From contig NZ_AOIQ01000007.1 in assembly GCF_000337515.1 (NCBI RefSeq), forward strand, positions 1-35,196: a DNA stretch of 35,196 bases, in the 5' to 3' direction. Below the pieces are notes generated by a model, which had not been told where the DNA came from, searched no databases, and saw nothing but the letters and a program-made list of their open reading frames with translations. Source of the DNA: Halovivax asiaticus JCM 14624 (GTDB lineage Archaea > Halobacteriota > Halobacteria > Halobacteriales > Natrialbaceae). Positions 38 to 8,407 of the stretch are shown in pieces; position 1 is the first letter of the stretch; the number at the start of each line of letters is the position of its first letter. A program made the translations under genes and the position numbers.

Positions 38-1577
38 CGCCGGTGCCGACGCCGTGAGTCAGGGCGTCGTCGACGTACTCGGCCGCCTCGGCGGCCGCAC
101 AGAGCTCCGTCGCGACGACGTGGCGGGCGTTCGCGAGCGCTGTCCGAGCGTGATCGGCTGCCTGGGCGCTCATGCTGACGTGATCCTCCTGACCGCCGGA
201 GACGGGTGTGTTGTCCGTCGCGGCGCGACCCAGCGAGCGGTTCTCGTTGACCAGCGACGCGGCGGTGTACTGGGCGATCATGTAGCCCGACTCGACGCCA
301 CTCTCGGTCGCCAAGAACGGTGGGAGGTGGTCCTCCTGGAGGTTCGGGTTCAGGAGGCGGTCGACCCGTCGCTCGCTGATAGCGGCGAGTTCGGTCAGCG
401 CCGCCGTGATGTAGTCGAGTCGGAGCGCGAGCGGTTCGCCGTGGAAGTTGCCGCCGGAGAGGACCGCCGCTCGATCCGTCCCGCTCGCACGTGGATCGGC
501 ATCGTCGGCGTCGAAGACGAGCGGGTTGTCCGTCGCGCTGTTGAGTTCGATCGCGACGGCTTCGCGGAGGTGGGCCACGGCCTCGCGAACCGCGCCGTGG
601 ACCTGCGGGAGACACCGCAGCGAGTAGGCGTCCTGCACCCGATCGCAGTTCCGGTGGGACTCGACGATCTCGGAATCGGCGGTCAGTGACCGGATTCGCT
701 CGGCACTCTCGCGGTGGCCCGAGTGGGGGCGAACCTCGGACAGCACGGGGTGGGAGGGAACCGTGGATCCCATCGTCACCTCCGTCGTGAGTGCGCCGGC
801 CGCGTCGGCCGCCTCGACGACGCGTTCGGCGTCGACGACGAGCAACGCCGCCAGGCCGACGGTGAGTTGCGTGCCGTTGATCATCGCCAGCCCCTCCTTC
901 GGGGCGAGCGACAGCGGGTCGAGCCCCGCGGTCGCGAGCGCCTCGTCACCCGGGAGCCGCCGACGGTCTGTCGCTGGGACGTCGGCTCGGTCGGTGGCCG
1001 CGCCCGAATCGCGGCCATCGGTCGCCCCATCGCTCTGGTCGACGATTGCCTCGCCCTCGCCGATGAGCACGAGCGCCATGTGCGAAAGCGGCGCGAGGTC
1101 GCCGCTAGCGCCGAGGCTACCCCGGGACCGGACGACCGGGTGGATCCCCTCGTTCAGCATCGTCACGAGGTGGTCGACGACGATCGGGCGGACGCCGGAG
1201 TGGCCCTTCGCGAGGGCGTTCAACCGGGTGACCAACATTGCGCGCACGGCCTCGCGACCGAGTTCCTCGCCGGCGCCAGAGGCGTGACTCCGCAGCAGGT
1301 TGTGCTGGAGTCGTGCGAGTTCGTCGGGTTCGATCCGCTCGTCGACGAGTTCGCCGAACCCGGTGTTGACGCCGTAAACTGGCTCGCCCGAGGCGACGAC
1401 GTCCTCGATGCGCTCGCGCGCGGTCTCGACGTTCGCCATCGCCTCGTCCGTCAGTTCGACGGGCGCGCCGAGTCTGGCGACGCGTTCGACGTCGGCTGGC
1501 GTGAGTGTCTCGCCGTCGACGCGAACGGGGTCGTCGGCGCCCGTCGTCTGCCGGGTCCGCTCGGTGGGCTCACCCAT
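38..1577 (-). CDS. hutH: Histidine ammonia-lyase, 3' end missing
   Basis: First enzyme of histidine degradation: removes ammonia from L-histidine to give urocanate in the cytoplasm. The Ala-Ser-Gly triad that cyclises to the MIO prosthetic group is at residues 157-159 within RGSLGASGDLAPLSH. The YGVNTGFG motif (68-75), the PKEGLAMINGTQ segment and the QEDHVSMS region are also present. A hydrophilic insertion of roughly 25 Asp/Ala/Thr-rich residues follows GEGEAIV, between the MIO segment and LPGDEAL, where bacterial HutH is short. Start is the ATG at 1577, overlapping the hutI stop by 8 bases, so this is the last gene of the hutUGIH operon. Only 513 genomic codons are seen; the adapter replaces the stop. 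Compared with family length (about 510-530 residues), few residues should be missing. Function is very sure. Confidence 0.96.
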
Positions 1578-2832
1578 GGACGCGCTCGCCTCCCTTGAGG
1601 ACGGTGTCGACGCGATTCACGCCGAAGCTGTAGGGAACGTGGACGTAACTCGGCGCGTCAAGTACGAGCAGATCGCCGGGAGCGCCGGGCCGGATCGTTC
1701 CGCTGTCTGTGGGAACGCCGCTCGCTCCACCGTCGCCGGCGTCGAGTGCTCGCGCGCCGCCGCGGGTGGCCGCTGTAAGCGCGGCTTCGGGGGTCATCTT
1801 CATCTTCGCACAGGCCAGCGCGACGGTAAACCCCATCGACTGTGCGTGGCAGTTAGGGTTGAAGTCGGAGGCCAGCGCGACGGTCGCACCCGCCTCGCGG
1901 AACTGCGCCGGATCGGCGTACTCCGTGTCGAGCGAGAACGCCGCCGCGGGAAGCAGGGTCGCCACCACGTCGGCCTCGGCGAGCGCCGCGGCGTCCTCGT
2001 CCGTCGCGCGCAGGAGGTGATCGGCGCTGACGGCCCCGACGTCCGCCCCAATCTGGGCGCCGCCGGTGCGGGCGAACTCCTCGGCGTGAATCTTCGGGGA
2101 AAGTCCGTGTTCGCGACCCGCTTCCAGAATCCGGCGGCTCTGTTCCGGTGTGAACACGTCTTCCTCGCAGAAGACGTCGCAAAAGGTCGCGATGCCCTGG
2201 TCGGCGACGGCCGGGAGTTGCTCGTCGATCACGCGCTGTGTGTATCCAGCCGCATCCTCGCCTTCCGGAACCGCGTGAGCCCCCATGAACGTCGGAACCA
2301 CGTCGACCGGATGTGACTCGCCCGCCCGGTCGATAGCCGCGAGCAGGCGAAGCTCCGTCTCGCGGTCGAGCCCGTAGCCGGATTTGACCTCGATCGTCGT
2401 CGTGCCGTGTTCGAGAGCCGCATCGAGCTGGGCCGTCAGGTTCGCGACGAGTTCGTCGTCGCTCGCCTCGCGAACGGCGCGAACGGTTCGGAGGATGCCG
2501 CCACCCTCGGCGAGGATCTCCTGGTAGTCGGCCCCACGAAGCCGGGCGGCGAACTCGTCGGAGCGATCGCCGGCGAAGACGCTGTGGGTGTGTGAGTCGA
2601 CGAAGCCGGGGATCACGCTCTGGCCAGTGGCGTCGACGGCCGTCCCGGCGTTCGCCGGCGGATACTCACGCGTCACCTCGTCCGTGGGCCCGACGGCGGC
2701 CACCGACCCGTCGACGATCGCGACGGCGGCGTCCTCGTACCGTTCGAGGGTCACGCCCGTGCCGGTGGCGTCCGAGTCCGGACCGACGACGATTTCCGCG
2801 GTGTCGTGGACGACCGCGTCGAGCTCAGACAC
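1570..2832 (-). CDS. hutI: Imidazolonepropionase
   Basis: Hydrolyses 4-imidazolone-5-propionate to N-formimidoyl-L-glutamate, the third step of the Hut pathway. The protein is an amidohydrolase-superfamily TIM barrel. The metal-binding HTH lies at residues 81-83 ([15 protein letters not shown]), followed by a [15 protein letters not shown] substrate loop, the [12 protein letters not shown] histidine and the [14 protein letters not shown] segment. I place the start at GTG 2832 ([10 protein letters not shown]), giving 420 residues, the usual HutI length. The frame stays open up to 3012, but that extra stretch lies inside hutG and is Arg/Ser/Pro-rich shadow sequence. A GGGGGTGAGG purine-rich Shine-Dalgarno-like run sits just before this GTG. 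The gene overlaps the hutG stop by 8 bases and the hutH start by 8 bases, indicating translational coupling. Confidence 0.95.
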
Positions 2833-3817
2833 GGGCCTCACCCCCGGCACCGTAGCCGGCGAGGGCGTGCGCGACCGTCCGCGCGGCCGCCCGCGCCGTC
2901 CGAGTACCGTCGTCCAGGCCGGGCGCGCACTCGACGACCTCGAACCCGGCGAGACGGTCGTCGTCGCAGGCTTCTCGCACGCACGCGAAGAGTTCGCGTG
3001 CGGTGAGGCCACCGGGCGTCGGCGCGCTGACCCCCGGGGCCGCCGGCGCGTCGAGGACGTCCAGGTCGACGCTGACGTAGAGATGGTCGACGCCGGAGAG
3101 CGTCCGCAACGCCCGGTCGAGCGCCGCGTCGCGATCCTCGCCGACGGCCTCCGCGGTCACCACCGCACCGCCTTCGCTCTGGAGCCACTCGACGTACGTC
3201 GTCGACGTCTCGAAGTGGCGTGCACCGACGACGGCGTAGGCGTCGAGGCCGCGGTCGTGTAACTGCCGGTAGGGCGTCCCGGAAGACGGCCCGTCCGCGG
3301 GCTCGCGCACGTCGAGGTGAGCGTCGAAGTTGAGGACGCCGACCGACCCCGACTCGAGGAGGGGCGCGACGTTCGGGACGGTGAGCGAGTTGTCGCCGCC
3401 GAGGAAGACGGGCAAGGCGTCGGTCGCGTGGAGGCCGGCGGTCACCGACTCGGTGAGTGCCTGGACGTCGCCGACGTCTGCTTGATCGTCGAGGTCGACC
3501 GTGTCGGTCGGCCACGCGACGTCGCCAAGGTCCCCCATGCGCCCGACGGGGCCCGCGTCGACGTGATGCGTCTTGACGCCGGCCAGCGCCTCGCGAATCG
3601 CACCGGGCCCCTCACGAGCTCCGCGCCGGCCGATGACGGCGCCGTCGTAGGGCTCGCCGAGGAGGACGGCGTCGAACTCGCCTGCGGTCGTCACGTCCGC
3701 CGGTGTGCCCGCCGCGTCCAGGGTCGCGGACTCGATCACGTCGCCGAACGTCTCGTCGTTCGGATCGCTCGCCGGCGACTCCCAGGCCGGTGGGGCCGAA
3801 ATCGTGGCTTCGGCCAT
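2825..3817 (-). CDS. hutG: Formimidoylglutamase (ureohydrolase family)
   Basis: Hydrolyses N-formimidoyl-L-glutamate to glutamate plus formamide, the last Hut step. It belongs to the arginase/agmatinase/formiminoglutamase fold with a dinuclear manganese centre. Visible motifs are NFDAHLD at residues 163-169 and [10 protein letters not shown] at 249-258, which supply the Asp/His metal ligands. The first motif, normally GG(D/G)H, reads GGDNS at 140-144, so the expected metal-ligand histidine is an asparagine at 143. The length of 330 residues fits the family. Start is the ATG at 3817, sharing one base with the hutU stop (TGATG). Its place between hutU and hutI supports HutG rather than agmatinase or arginase. 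The His-to-Asn change may be a normal variant of this subgroup; I could not compare sequences. Confidence 0.92.
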
Positions 3818-5553
3818 CAGTCATCACCTCGGTCGCGCATGGGGATCGCGACGTCCGACTCGCGAGCGGTGTCGAGAGCCTTCTCGTAGCCCGCGTCGGC
3901 GTGGCGGATCACGCCCATCCCGGGGTCCGTCGTGAACACGCGCTTTGCGGTCTCGGCCGCCTGCTCCGTCCCGTCGAGGACGACGTGGTTGTTCGTGTGC
4001 AGGGCGTTGCCGATGCCGACGCCGCCCCCGTCGTGGACAGAGACGATGTCCGCACCTGCCGCGCAGTTGAGTAGCGCGTTCAGGATCGGCCAGTCGGCCA
4101 CGGCGTCGGTGCCGTCGCGCATGGCCTCGGTCTCGCGGTTGGGACTCGCGACGGAGCCGGCGTCCAGGTGATCGCGGGTGACGACGATCGGCGCTGCGAT
4201 CTCGCCCTCGCGGACGAGGTCGTTGATCCGCAGGGCGAACCTGGCGCGCTCGGTGAGTCCGTCGTCGTCGGTGGAGTACCCCAGCCAGCACACCCGCGAT
4301 GGCAGTCCCTGGAACTGCACCTGCTCCTGAGCGAGTTCGATCCAGCGCCGGAGCGAGTCCTTCTCGGGGAACAGATCGAGGACGGCCTCGTCCGTGCGGA
4401 AGATGTCCTCGGGATCACCTGAGAGTGCGGCCCAGCGGAAGGGGCCGCGGCCCTCGCAGAACTGCGGGCGGATGTACGCCGGGACGAAGCCGGGGAAGTC
4501 GAACGCCGTTTCCATCCCGCGTTCGTCTTGCACCTGGCCGCGAATGTTGTTCCCGTACTCGAACGCGATCGCGCCGCGATCCTGCAGGTCGAGGATGGCC
4601 TGGACGTGCCGTTCCATCGTGTCGATGCTCTCAGCGACGTAGCGGTCCGGGTCCTCGTCGCGGAGCGTGTCGGCCTCGGCGACGGTGTACCCCGACGGAT
4701 AGTAGCCCTCGAGCGCGTCGTGCGCGCTCGTCTGGTCGGTGACGATGTCGGGCACGAACTCACGTTCGAGCATCGCTTCGAGCATGTCTGCGGCGTTCAC
4801 GTGGACGCCGACGCTGTACGATTCGCCCGCCGCGGCGGCCGCCTCGGCGCGCTCGATGGCTTCGTCGAGGTCGTCGGTCTTCTCCTGGCAGTAGCCCGTC
4901 TCGATCCGGCGGTCGATGCGCTCCTCGTCGACCTCCGCCGCGATACAGACGCCGCCGTTCATGGTGACGGCCAGTGGCTGGGCGCCGCCCATCCCGCCGA
5001 GTCCGCCGGTGACGACGATGCGGCCCTCGAGATCCGTCTCGTCGTACTCTGCGCGTGCGAGCGCGGCGAGCGTCTCGTAGGTTCCCTGGATGATCCCCTG
5101 CGTGCCGATGTACGCCCACGACCCCGCGGTCATCTGGCCGTACATGATCTTCCCCTCGGCCTCGAGTTCGTGGAAGTGCTCCCAGTCGTCCCACTTCCCC
5201 ACGAGATTCGAGTTGGCGATCAGTACCCGCGGCGCGCGTTCGTGGGTCCGAAAGCGACCGACGGGTTTGCCGCTCTGGACGAGCAGGGTCTCGTCGTCCG
5301 CGAGATCGCGCAGTTCCTCGACGATGGCGTCGTAGGCGTCCCAGTTCCGGGCCGCGCTCCCGGTCCCGCCGTAGACGACGAGTTCCTCGGGTTTCTCAGC
5401 CACCTCGGGATCGAGGTTGTTGTTGAGCATTCGGAGGGCGGCCTCCTGACGCCACCCCTCGCACTCGAGCTCGGTGCCAGTCGACGCACCCTGGTACGCC
5501 CGCCAGGTGTCGCTTGGCTCACCACGGTCGAACGACTTGGAAGCGTCCTGCAT
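3817..5553 (-). CDS. hutU: Urocanate hydratase
   Basis: Second Hut step: converts urocanate to 4-imidazolone-5-propionate using tightly bound NAD+ as an electrophile. The NAD-binding glycine-rich stretch [10 protein letters not shown] is at residues 183-192. The conserved [11 protein letters not shown] and [15 protein letters not shown] segments lie toward the C-terminus, and the N-terminal [10 protein letters not shown] and [12 protein letters not shown] blocks are intact. The ATG at 5553 gives 578 residues, close to the usual 550-580. The open frame continues upstream to 5898, but those codons overlap the divergent regulator gene and are not urocanase-like. This is the first gene of the minus-strand hutUGIH operon. 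Its promoter must lie in the 84-base gap before the regulator; a weak T-rich box (about 5576-5582 on the minus strand) sits some 25 bases upstream. Confidence 0.97.
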
Positions 5554-5637
5554 ACCTGTCTCTCGACCGCGTCCGTCAAAACGTCTCACCCCACCGCACG
5601 GAGGTGGGTTGAAGTATATCCGGGACGAGTCGTCTGC
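5554..5637. promoter_or_regulatory. Divergent hutU / regulator promoter
   Basis: This 84-base gap separates hutU (minus) from the Bat-type regulator (plus). On the plus strand GTATAT at about 5614-5619 lies 19-24 bases before the regulator ATG, as expected for a TATA box of a leaderless or near-leaderless transcript. For hutU only a weak TTTT-containing box is visible. The dyad at 5590-5608 lies between the two cores. Confidence 0.6.
5590..5608. repeat. Inverted repeat, possible hut operator
   Basis: CCCACC and GGTGGG are perfect 6-base inverted arms around the 7-base spacer GCACGGA. The dyad is the only clear symmetric element in the divergent promoter and would be well placed for a dimeric regulator acting on both genes. 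A role as operator is inference. Confidence 0.45.
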
Positions 5638-6288
5638 ATGCACGAAGCGACGTTCCGCCTCGAACCCGCCGGCCCGTACGGCGAGTCGACGGCCGGGACC
5701 GACACCACTGTCGCACTCTGGTGTAACGACCACGCGGATCTGCTCTCGATCCGCGGCGACGCTAGCGCCGTCCTCGCGGCCGTCGACGAGCGAGTCGGCG
5801 TCAGCGATCGAATCGACCGTGGCGATCGAACCCTGGCCGTTACTGCGGACTGCCTCGGCGAGGAGGGTGGCACTGTGGATCGCTCTCTCCGGCGGCATGG
5901 GTGTCTCCTCGTCCCGCCGCTACGGTACGAACGCGGGACCAAGCTCGTCCGGGTACTCGCCCTCGACCCGGGAGATCTCACGGCGCTCTACCGCGATCTC
6001 GTCGACGAGAGTTCGGTCACCGTCGAAGCGAAGCGCTCGTTCGACCAGCCGGACGCGGGTGAAGACCGGGGGCAGTCCCCGTTCGACGCGGCGCCGACGC
6101 TGTCACCACGGCAACGGGAAGCGCTCACGATCGCCCACGAACGCGGCTATTACGAGCGACCGCGCGAGGTGACCGCCGAGGCCATCGGGGAAGATCTGGA
6201 CGTCACCCGTCGGACGGCCGCCGAACATCTCCGACGCGCCGAGCAGAAAGTGATCGACGCGTACGTCGAGCGGTCGGCGCACCGGTAA
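5638..6288 (+). CDS. Bat-type HTH-10 regulator, probable Hut regulator
   Basis: Predicted DNA-binding transcription factor of 216 residues in the haloarchaeal bacterio-opsin-activator (Bat) style. The N-terminal two thirds form a sensing region that I cannot assign to a named ligand domain. The C-terminal HTH_10 domain runs from [25 protein letters not shown] through the recognition part [20 protein letters not shown] (about residues 155-210). The ATG at 5638 is chosen because a TATA-like GTATAT lies about 20 bases upstream and the region beyond it belongs to hutU. Transcription is divergent from hutUGIH, so local control of histidine catabolism is the best guess. Whether it activates or represses, and its ligand, are unknown. 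Confidence 0.85.
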
Positions 6289-6391
6289 CGAATGCAGTCG
6301 AGGATAGAAGCGGCCTGTCGGAGTTTGCAAGAGGCAAAATTCGACGTTCTCATTTCGGAACCCGGTGTTGATTCCACACACTAACCAGTAA

Positions 6392-6400
6392 CTATATTAT
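6392..6400 (+). promoter_or_regulatory. TATA box for the candidate structured RNA
   Basis: CTATATTAT forms an archaeal TATA box in an AT-rich patch. Its centre is about 26-27 bases upstream of the first base of the 7-bp helix at 6423, the standard distance to a transcription start. Confidence 0.6.
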
Positions 6401-6421
6401 CCTTCACGTCATCCATCCGAA

Positions 6422-6548
6422 CGGAAGCCCCATCCGTCGGGTACGAAAGTGCCCCGGGTGTTAGAGCACCCGAGACGTGGCTTCCAAATCGCGCTCGGCA
6501 ATTTGGTTGCCATGTTCCGAAAGACACCTTCGAGACAAAAAGGTCTCG
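6422..6548 (+). ncRNA. Candidate structured RNA (own gene or leader)
   Basis: I see no convincing protein from 6289 to 6660, but strong RNA structure. GGAAGCC (6423-6429) pairs with GGCTTCC (6479-6485). Inside, CGTC (6435-6438) pairs with GACG (6474-6477) and encloses two adjacent hairpins: GGGTAC/GTGCCC with a GAAA tetraloop (6439-6454) and CGGGTG/CACCCG with a TTAGAG loop (6455-6472). Two further hairpins follow, GGCAA/TTGCC (6497-6511) and CGAGAC/GTCTCG (6531-6548). A well-placed TATA box precedes it. It matches no RNA family I recognise: not SRP RNA, RNase P RNA, 5S, a tRNA or a known riboswitch. The 3' end is uncertain; the transcript could run into the zinc-protein gene at 6661 and act as its leader. 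A last hairpin, CGGTCC/GGACCG (6629-6648), lies just before that gene. Confidence 0.55.
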
Positions 6549-6660
6549 CACGCCCGTTGCCTAGAGAGTCGTATCGCTACCCGTCGCTGAGCTTCGCTTT
6601 CGGGGATTGGGGGCCGAGTCACTTCGATCGGTCCAAGTCATCGGACCGGGAGGCGCTCGG

Positions 6661-6915
6661 ATGAAATCCGTCGAGCGAGAGCGCGGCGGAGCTGGCGATG
6701 TGTCTCGCGATCGGGAGTGCTATCGGTGTGATCGGGACGTGGCACCGGCGCGGCTCTTTCGGCTCGTTGCCGAGCCGCCGGCCGCGCTCGCGCACGACTA
6801 CCAGACCGCGGAGCGGTTTTGCTGCCCGGATTGCGCCGCCGCGATGAACCTCTCCGAGTTCTCGGAGCGGTTGAAAGCACGCGCTCGTCGGGGTGAGAAG
6901 TCGCCGGGCAGGTGA
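6661..6915 (+). CDS. Small zinc-finger-like protein
   Basis: A hypothetical protein of 84 residues. It carries CYRCD near residues 20-24 and CCPDC near residues 53-57, a paired CxxC arrangement typical of small haloarchaeal zinc-binding proteins. The C-terminus is basic (RLKARARRGEKSPGR), which would suit nucleic-acid or protein binding. I chose ATG 6661; the frame is open further upstream, but that part falls in the structured RNA region and shows no protein-like features. No named family is recognised. It lies between the candidate RNA and the Lrp-type regulator on the same strand, with 70 bases to the latter. Confidence 0.65.
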   Translation: MKSVERERGGAGDVSRDRECYRCDRDVAPARLFRLVAEPPAALAHDYQTAERFCCPDCAAAMNLSEFSERLKARARRGEKSPGR

Positions 6916-6985
6916 CTGGTCGAGCGGCGCGGTCGGAGATTAGACGGTGACAAAGTGCTTTGCGTTTTGGTCCCGAAAACACTCT

Positions 6986-7492
6986 ATGGGACGCGATTTA
7001 GACGACGTGGATCGAAGCATCCTCTACCTGCTTCAGCAGGATGCTCGAACCACGACCGCCCAGGAGATCGGCGATCAGGTCGGCGTCTCGGCCAGCACCG
7101 TCCGCAACCGGATCGACGCCCTCGAAGCCGACGGGATCATCCGCGGTTATCATCCGGAAATCGACTACGAGGCAGCCAACCTGCCCTTGCAGGTGACCTT
7201 CGTCGTGACTGTGCCACCCACCGAACTGTCCAGCTACTCCGAGCAGGTTCGAGGGGTCCAGGGCGTGATCGACGTCAGAGAGATGCTCACCGGTCGTCGG
7301 AACATCCAGGTCGACGTGGTCGGGACGAGTACACGCGATATTACGAGAATCACCGATTCCATCCACGAGATCGGTGCCGAAATCGAAAGCTCGGAGATGA
7401 TGCGTCAGCGCCACGTGCAGCCGTTCAACCACTTCTTCCTGCAGGGGACAGATGATATGAGCGCACGTGCGGACGATTCCGAAACCGACTGA
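6986..7492 (+). CDS. Lrp/AsnC family transcriptional regulator
   Basis: DNA-binding regulator of 168 residues. The N-terminal winged helix (LDDVDRSILYLLQQDARTT, then EIGDQVGVSASTVRNRIDAL and a GIIRGYHPEIDYE wing) is the standard Lrp/AsnC start. The rest resembles the ligand-binding RAM-type domain, but the usual effector is not evident. I start at ATG 6986 (MGRDLDDVD), where Lrp homology begins. An in-frame start at 6947 would add 13 residues unlike the family. A T-rich box (GCGTTTTGG, about 6962-6970) lies some 20 bases before this ATG, suggesting a short leader. Lrp-type proteins often regulate themselves or their neighbours; the target here is unknown. Confidence 0.9.
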   Translation: MGRDLDDVDRSILYLLQQDARTTTAQEIGDQVGVSASTVRNRIDALEADGIIRGYHPEIDYEAANLPLQVTFVVTVPPTELSSYSEQVRGVQGVIDVREMLTGRRNIQVDVVGTSTRDITRITDSIHEIGAEIESSEMMRQRHVQPFNHFFLQGTDDMSARADDSETD

Positions 7493-7518
7493 TCGGTGAC
7501 GGCGCTAATGCTACCCGT

Positions 7519-7626
7519 TTCGGAATTCCACAGTATATGAGGACCACATTCGCTCTAACACATCTTTTGATCGCAAATCCGCAGTTATAACGCACTAAGC
7601 TGCGGAATACGGAATTTGTCTATATA
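7519..7626 (+). promoter_or_regulatory. AT-rich regulatory region upstream of DUF7344-like gene
   Basis: This stretch is distinctly AT-rich compared with its surroundings. CCGCAG (7579-7584) and CTGCGG (7600-7605) are perfect inverted arms around a 15-base spacer containing TTATAA. CGGAATT occurs twice in direct orientation (7521 and 7610). A strong TATA box TATATA is at 7621-7626, predicting a start near 7650 and a leader of about 80 bases before the gene at 7732. The adjacent Lrp-type regulator is an obvious candidate to bind here, but that is inference. Confidence 0.5.
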
Positions 7627-7660
7627 CACTCACAACAGCGTTATCCGTGTCTTGAGTCAA

Positions 7661-7675
7661 CTAGTACGAGAGGAC
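7661..7675 (+). other. Sarcin-ricin-loop-like motif in leader
   Basis: CTAGTACGAGAGGAC is identical to the universal core of the 23S rRNA sarcin-ricin loop as found in bacterial rRNA. It includes the bulged-G module, the GAGA tetraloop (7668-7671) and its closing C-G pair. It lies in the predicted 5' leader of the gene at 7732. The longer stem of the rRNA is not conserved, so only the local fold is predicted. Function unknown. Confidence 0.5.
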
Positions 7676-7731
7676 ATACCCGCTGAAGGTCTCGGCCGTC
7701 CTTCGGGGGTTGACATCTTCGGACACACAGT

Positions 7732-8022
7732 ATGAACGACAAGGCATTCGATGCGCTAGAGAACGAAGATCGCCGAAATCTGTTACTCGCGCTCCTCGAA
7801 CACAATCCCCAGACCGTCCCCACACGATCCCCTGTGAGCGAACAGGTCACGTCCGCGGCCCCCGACCAGCAGTTCCAGACCGCGATGTACCATAAACACC
7901 TCCCCAAACTCGACGCGTACGGCTTCATCCGATGGGATACGGAGACAGACGAGGTCGTCAAAGGGCCGGAGTTCGAAGACATTCGTCCGCTCCTCGAAGC
8001 GATAGTCGACAAAGAGCGCTGA
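7732..8022 (+). CDS. DUF7344-like winged-helix protein
   Basis: A 96-residue protein that looks like a haloarchaeal winged-helix regulator of the DUF7344 type. It opens with FDALENEDRRNLLLALLEHNPQ, a helix resembling the start of ArsR-like domains, followed by a variable segment. The YHKHLPKLDAYGFIRWDTETDEVVKGPEFEDIRPLL part would be the recognition helix and wing. No metal or ligand site is visible. ATG 7732 is the first start in the frame that fits the domain. The predicted promoter at 7621-7626 leaves a leader of about 80 bases, long for a haloarchaeon, with an rRNA-like motif inside it. The DUF assignment is from memory of the family pattern. Confidence 0.8.
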   Translation: MNDKAFDALENEDRRNLLLALLEHNPQTVPTRSPVSEQVTSAAPDQQFQTAMYHKHLPKLDAYGFIRWDTETDEVVKGPEFEDIRPLLEAIVDKER

Positions 8023-8407
8023 GTCGACAAGAAAACGCCAGTGTGGCCTCGTAACTGCACTCACCTGTCCGTGTGAACTACCCGACGCGGCCCGTTCACG
8101 GCGGCCTCGTTCGCGGTTCTCGATTCGGTTCGAACCGCGCGGCACTCAGGATGGATGGGCTGCGACTCGCGTAATTCGAACCTCAGTTCGATTGCCGCTG
8201 CTCGCGAATTGCTCGCAGACACGTCTCTCACTATCGTTCGCAAAACCGAGAGACTCACTGACGTTCGTCTCTCGCATGCGAGGGTTGGGATTTGAACTAC
8301 CTCCAGACGGTCCTGCTCGCTCACTCCGTTCGCTGTGCGGGCTGCGGCTGGCGTTCTTCAAATCCCGCGTCACACAGACACGTCTCTCACATTCGTTCGA
8401 GACGGTA
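8023..8407. other. Gene-free region with dyad and tRNA-derived repeats
   Basis: I see no credible gene in these 385 bases. CGCGGTTC (8112-8119) and GAACCGCG (8132-8139) form an 8-bp dyad, and CGGTTCGAACCG at 8127-8138 is a perfect palindrome. From 8216 onward the region consists of repeats related to the 3' end of the neighbouring tRNA-Leu and its downstream flank. The segment 8310-8370 is rich in the CGCTCACTCCGTTCGC-type sequence common in degraded haloarchaeal intergenic DNA. Confidence 0.6.
8216..8297 (-). repeat. Duplicated tRNA-Leu 3' end plus flank (truncated copy)
   Basis: The 22 bases at 8276-8297 are identical to 8407-8428, which cover the discriminator, acceptor 3' strand and most of the T arm of the tRNA-Leu gene. 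The block CAGACACGTCTCTCAC at 8216-8231 recurs at 8375-8390, on the corresponding side of the true tRNA. Tail and flank have therefore been copied together as an imperfect unit of about 50-80 bases. This is how tRNA-located integration sites look after element loss. Confidence 0.7.

Follow-up and report, generated by a model that had tools for sequence, protein, structure and literature searches.

A structured RNA at positions 6421-6559 of the forward strand of the window, i.e., the whole 35,196-nt stretch of Halovivax asiaticus JCM 14624 DNA analyzed here (all features below lie on this strand), probably serves a bicistronic mRNA as its 5' leader and, judging from its evolution, acts as a bistable translational switch that sequesters the start codon. 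The initial annotation had left open whether this RNA is a new sRNA or a leader controlling the downstream zinc gene; the leader reading is supported by the position of the AUG, the covariation of the strand that carries it (strand c) and the overlap of the ORFs, and the new sRNA is not. Beyond that annotation, an alternative helix that hides the AUG, a short ORF inside the region and a multicopy haloarchaeal family were found.

Structure and Promoter of the Element

Folding of positions 6420-6560 yielded an energy of -59.0 kcal/mol, as compared to -41.7 ± 3.6 kcal/mol for dinucleotide shuffles (z -4.9), and none of the 200 shuffles was as stable, which bears out the structured RNA suspected there. 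When P1 was constrained, the fold reproduced the helices described initially, namely the 7-bp helix P1 (6423-6429/6479-6485), an inner 4-bp helix P1b (6435-6438/6474-6477) and two back-to-back hairpins, P2 (6439-6454; stem 6439-6444/6449-6454) with its GAAA loop and P3 (6455-6472; stem 6455-6460/6467-6472) abutting it. The two further hairpins are P4 (6484-6506; stem 6484-6489/6501-6506) and P5 (6531-6548; stem 6531-6536/6543-6548, with an A-rich loop). Without this constraint the window copy folds optimally in another way: 6474-6481 pairs with 6509-6516 around P4, which buries the AUG at 6512. Three strands are involved: strand a (GGAAGCC, 6423-6429), which is the 5' side of P1; the switching strand b (GACGTGGCTTCC, 6474-6485), which forms P1 with a via 6479-6485 or the sequestering helix with c; and strand c (GCCATGTT, 6509-6516), which holds the AUG.

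The RNA is predicted to begin where the TATA box places the start, as had been claimed: the TATA box ACTATATTA at 6391-6399 predicts transcription from about 6421-6422, and its spacing is kept across 68 copies. Among these, the positions -29 to -26 before GGAAG are A or T in 99-100% and position -37 is G or C in 94%, and because of this conservation the predicted transcription start coincides with the 5' end of P1. An upstream promoter element, TTGATTCCAC at 6368-6377, is also conserved and forms the left end of the repeat, since most full-length type-A copies begin aligning at 6368. We infer that the copy in the window is transcribed.

In the window, the covariance model R2 (described below) detected the element with 104.1 bits (E 9.5e-26) and otherwise gave only a weak match to the reverse complement of the element itself. 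The remark that the RNA fits no known class agrees with the comparison to Rfam 15, which returned no match in the window nor at the RNA in the loci of 18 relatives; at gathering and lax thresholds the best weak match was STnc450 with 14.2 bits (cut-off 37), outside the element. The RNA family is new in the sense that it is absent from Rfam 15, its newness being judged by the Rfam test only.

Copy Number and Distribution

A search of haloarchaeal genomes, proposed in the initial annotation, revealed a conserved, multicopy family in most sampled genomes of the order. A DNA search located about 27 loci in the element's own genome, where the family has about 25 copies; it also revealed copies in each of the 5 genomes searched from the genus and in the majority of those from the family. 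Of 125 genomes from the family, the covariance model R1, built from 42 copies, matched 85, some of them at least 24 times (up to 24 candidates were scored per genome); in other families its matches were weaker and often single. The model R2, derived from 45 diverse members and applied with a threshold of E 1e-4, matched 288 of 392 sampled genomes of the order, representing 79 of 95 genera. These genome counts are lower bounds because strict filters were used in the large searches. In a draw of 148 genomes from the phylum, all 14 matching genomes belonged to the order Halobacteriales and none lay outside it. The phage records searched contained no match to the element. A core-pattern search of IMG/VR yielded three contigs, and one of them, L271, is also matched by the covariance model; the copy on this viral contig (8512-8651) has b GGCAUCC and c GAUGCC changed together. 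In one genome, three copies follow in a row about 1.5-1.7 kb apart (G024:C1 1570915, 1572635, and 1574158).

The type-A unit extends over approximately 550 bp (about 6368-6918) and comprises the promoter, the RNA, a short ORF (ORF1) and the zinc-protein gene (ORF2). A repeated unit of this size in about 25 dispersed copies, together with a cassette that adjoins variable DNA, is what a non-autonomous MITE-like mobile element with palindromes serving transposition would also produce. However, the ends of the unit coincide with the promoter and a stop codon, inspection by eye of five pairs of cassette junctions revealed neither terminal inverted repeats nor target duplications, sites are common to different species with a continuous upstream flank, and selection acts on ORF2 as well as on the RNA, so that we consider a transposition-related role of the palindromes very improbable.

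The surroundings of the type-A cassettes were compared between two genomes (G000 and G003) at orthologous sites (window 6897-8159 and L089-L097). The alignment is continuous to approximately the end of ORF2 and breaks there in 5 of 5 sites, beyond which 0.14-5.6 kb of different DNA precede conserved genes; between these genomes the cassette lies at the border of a variable site. The 5.6-kb insert of G003 at such a site (L091, about 1567-7203 with the locus turned to its reverse strand) encodes proteins that by eye resemble an AAA ATPase and a DUF4157-type protein of the kind found in contractile-injection-like clusters. A gene for an Lrp/AsnC-type regulator follows the cassette in the window (6987-7492) and follows a different cassette type at L061 in another genome (G002).

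Genes Downstream of the Element

The initial annotation saw no credible protein in the region, which was not borne out: the AUG at 6512 opens ORF1 of 50 codons (6512-6664) with a conserved N-terminus, MFRKTPSRQKGLAR, and P5 therefore lies within coding sequence. Frame and length of ORF1 are kept in the type-A copies, where dN/dS is 0.32 for codons 1-25 and 0.96 for codons 26-50, i.e., the second half is near neutral. ORF2 (6661-6915) encodes a small zinc protein of 84 amino acids (CxxC...CCxxC) and overlaps the ORF1 stop by ATGA. Its dN/dS among paralogues was 0.33 and 0.32 in two groups, indicating purifying selection. Among 68 copies, the ORF1 stop and ORF2 start share the 4-nt ATGA overlap in 40, overlap otherwise (-8, -1) in 6 and show the spacing TGAGATG in 10. 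The same ORF1/ORF2 layout is present in named Natrinema, Natrialba, Halopiger, and Natronorubrum and in other genera.

The ORF2 proteins comprise at least three types of small zinc proteins with a CxxC or CxC-like motif in 57 of 63, and those tested belonged to no Pfam or NCBIfam family at cut-off. In the copies and their distant relatives, an AUG about 80-115 nt from the RNA 5' end opens either a zinc protein or a short overlapping ORF; a CxxC or CxC motif occurs in the first or the coupled ORF of 19 of 30 independent hits. The genes behind the leader mostly encode small zinc-finger proteins and sometimes PadR-type regulators or integrases (a tyrosine recombinase). SWIM proteins also occur behind it: two were above the Pfam cut-off, and in Haladaptatus plasmids proteins annotated as SWIM are found, one of which begins at the predicted AUG. 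The SWIM genes of Halorussus and Haloprofundus (L279 near 3986 and L280 near 3998) are without the leader and have another hairpin-like sequence in common directly upstream (TTCTGCCCC..GAAGGGTGCGGGGCACTC).

A trans-acting small RNA located upstream of the zinc gene by chance might likewise have its own TATA box, a compact fold and multiple copies. Such an RNA would have no downstream ORF of its own, whereas here the AUG inside the element opens an ORF in the copies and in relatives. Its fixed position at the AUG, the covariation of strand c, the overlap of the ORFs and the consistent gene association across families also speak against this explanation, to which we attach little credence.

Some copies lead an operon that adjoins BrxL and includes a RAMP-like protein, which raises the idea that the RNA serves a CRISPR-derived defence module of haloarchaea as its guide or scaffold. 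The HRAMP modules of haloarchaea derive from CRISPR systems and contain homologues of Cas5 and Cas7 (PMC8730458), and BrxL was identified at L291:1982-3133 (PADLOC E 2e-149), with similar sequence beside L300 and L307. Against this, the RAMP likeness was seen by eye only and is backed by no Pfam, PADLOC or PDB match, and most copies lead unrelated small zinc genes; a role as guide or scaffold therefore appears exceedingly unlikely. When ORF2-type and RAMP-like proteins were compared with Pfam, NCBIfam, PADLOC, and PDB, only SWIM, PadR and phage integrase were above cut-off. As for the gene order at these loci, BrxL precedes a copy with a CxxC protein behind it (L291, with matching upstream ORFs at L300 and L307), and at L291 and L307 the copy also leads a coupled protein that by eye resembles a Cas7-like RAMP.

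Covariation of the Two Competing Helices

Compensatory changes in P1 and the hairpins had been named initially as support for the fold, and the covariance models reveal them in P1, P2, and P3. In the A3 alignment of 45 sequences, which is biased toward P1 and not toward the b:c helix, two-sided changes were found in 31 of 32 pairs of the P1 state, and the 197 two-sided cells compare to 52.7 ± 7.5 for shuffled and 27-46 for slid versions of the alignment. Strands a and b covary in P1, P2 shows two-sided changes in all 7 aligned pairs, and P3, although near invariant, shows them in 4 of 5 pairs in distant relatives. For P4, which occupies the interval between b and c, 61 unique segments whose stems differ in sequence gave a mean fold z of -1.66. 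In P5, two-sided changes occurred in 6 of 6 aligned pairs and the A's of the loop are 87-97% conserved. Unpaired bases conserved across the order are few, namely AA in L2, the A's in the P5 loop and CAUG.

The b:c helix, which is absent from both models, was assessed by swapping partners between sequences. In A3, the duplex of b with its own c had -9.84 kcal/mol as compared to -6.75 ± 0.38 kcal/mol for swapped partners, and none of 2000 swaps was as good, which also held when each distinct c hexamer was represented by a single row (18 rows) and when the AUG was excluded. For 30 hits from 20 genomes outside both models the values were -8.60 and -6.65 ± 0.35 kcal/mol (0 of 5000), with the reservation, valid for all these tests, that the shuffles ignore phylogeny and relatedness among rows remains. 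Strands a, b, and c read GGAAGCC, GGCUUCC, and GAAGCCAUG in Natrialbaceae; GGAAGACC, GGUCUUCC, and GAAGACCAUG in Haladaptatus relatives; GGAAACC, GGUUUCC, and AAACCAUG in L056; AGAAACCC, GGGUUUCU, and GGAAACCCAUG in L316; and, in a further three-way change, GAAGGUC, GGCCUUC, and GAAAGGCCAUG. In L304, GACAAACCAUG is paired off with GGUUUGUC. In the type-B copies CGUGG/CCAUG is kept and the bases before CCAUG mismatch b. Since a, b, and c change together across haloarchaea, both helices appear to be selected and to exclude each other.

The strength of b:c as such is unexceptional as compared to random AUGs in GC-rich DNA (medians of -11.2 and -10.1 versus -8.4), and only 37% and 13% fell below the 5% point of the background. 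Exact 5-nt a/b/c triples were found in 5 of 30 independent hits as compared to 4.5% of background AUGs, and exact b:c 5-mers in 19 of 30 as compared to 19%. Because the absolute strength of b:c is not unusual and exact triples are uncommon, the case for a switch rests on the covariation. Two earlier treatments of the data were superseded. RNAalifold on the MAFFT alignment A1 recovered only P1 and P3, P2 being missed because its 5' strand was misaligned in short copies, and was replaced by the covariance-model alignment; a count of b:c pairs in fixed columns of A1, where few pairs varied owing to a one-base shift in register from family to family, was replaced by the swap tests.

With folding energies that refer to standard conditions rather than to the haloarchaeal cytoplasm, the median difference between the P1 state and the closed state was -1.9 kcal/mol in favour of P1 (interquartile range -6.1 to -0.4; 68 copies), and in most copies the energies of the two states lie close together. 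In the window copy, whose P1 is comparatively short, the closed state is the more stable by 6 kcal/mol. A constitutive leader, in which P1, P2, and P3 insulate or stabilise the mRNA and P5 aids ribosome pausing at the AUG without regulated switching, would be compatible with the P1 state being favoured by several kcal/mol in many copies and with the conservation of P5 just behind the AUG. It leaves unexplained, however, that the bases before the AUG change with b in separate lineages, and we regard it as unlikely.

Proposed Mechanism and Comparison with Known Systems

The sequence comparisons support the structure, both competing helices, the location at the AUG and the ORF overlap, and on this basis we propose a translational switch with two states. 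Pairing of b with a would give the open state, in which P1 closes a compact three-way junction together with P2 and P3 and leaves the AUG at 6512 accessible. Pairing of b with c would give the closed state, in which P4 is extended and the AUG hidden. As ORF1 overlaps the zinc-protein ORF, the switch at the ORF1 AUG would govern ORF2 as well, via termination-reinitiation. In Haloferax volcanii, gene pairs with such an overlap are strictly coupled and Shine-Dalgarno sequences are unused at 5'-UTRs (PMC6728339); by analogy, translation of ORF1 and ORF2 may be coupled at the window locus. That the states interchange in the cell, and in which direction control is exerted, we likewise infer.

The leader precedes many zinc-finger genes and some genes for regulators and integrases, and therefore a shared input probably shifts the balance toward P1; the variety of downstream genes argues for such an input and against each product merely regulating its own leader. 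In order of likelihood, the trigger would be an RNA-binding protein, a small molecule or ion, or temperature or salt. The small number of conserved unpaired bases speaks slightly more for a protein or a tertiary contact than for a buried pocket that holds a metabolite. The protein could possibly be a small zinc-finger protein working as Com does in phage Mu; Com, itself a small zinc finger, binds the mom mRNA, activates its translation and is thought to melt a start-codon stem (PMC6483171). Small zinc proteins are encoded behind most copies of the leader. The com-mom pair is the nearest worked precedent, as there too the start codon lies in a stem that needs opening, whereas the haloarchaeal leader precedes many different genes and involves competition of three strands.

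The predicted architecture is that of a translational riboswitch. Its position as a 5' leader is indicated by the TATA spacing and the position of the AUG, and a conserved domain with mutually exclusive platform helices by the a:b and b:c covariation. As in translational riboswitches (in archaea, the fluoride riboswitch), P1 in a 5' leader would be shared by a junction domain and a platform masking initiation; unlike in these, the element has no Rfam match, the AUG itself is masked, Shine-Dalgarno sequences play no role and conserved unpaired bases are few. We do not file it as a riboswitch proper, which requires direct ligand binding. The synthetic theophylline riboswitch E, an artificial AUG-masking riboswitch that works at high salt in Hfx. 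volcanii (PMC8241225), similarly hides the AUG in a stem and frees it when an upstream domain folds, but is designed and contains a Shine-Dalgarno sequence. With respect to the encoded proteins, the zinc-finger micro-proteins of H. volcanii (e.g., HVO_0758) resemble ORF2 in their very small size and paired CxxC motifs, but we found no leader RNA described for them.

Significance

Haloarchaeal mRNAs are mostly leaderless, and Shine-Dalgarno sequences are not employed at 5'-UTRs (PMC6728339), and in 2021 the fluoride riboswitch was stated to be the only natural riboswitch experimentally determined in archaea (PMC8241225). It is conceivable, though rather doubtful, that the element represents the first native haloarchaeal riboswitch-like class, present in most genomes and with about 25 copies in some, and constitutes a translational network in which paralogous small zinc-finger proteins, by binding the leaders, free or hide one another's start codons, with links to accessory genes such as integrases and neighbours of defence systems. 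With 288 of the 392 genomes sampled from the order carrying it and no entry in Rfam, such a leader would amount to a major level of gene control in these archaea that has gone unrecognised, and the leader family offers a handle on many unnamed small zinc proteins.
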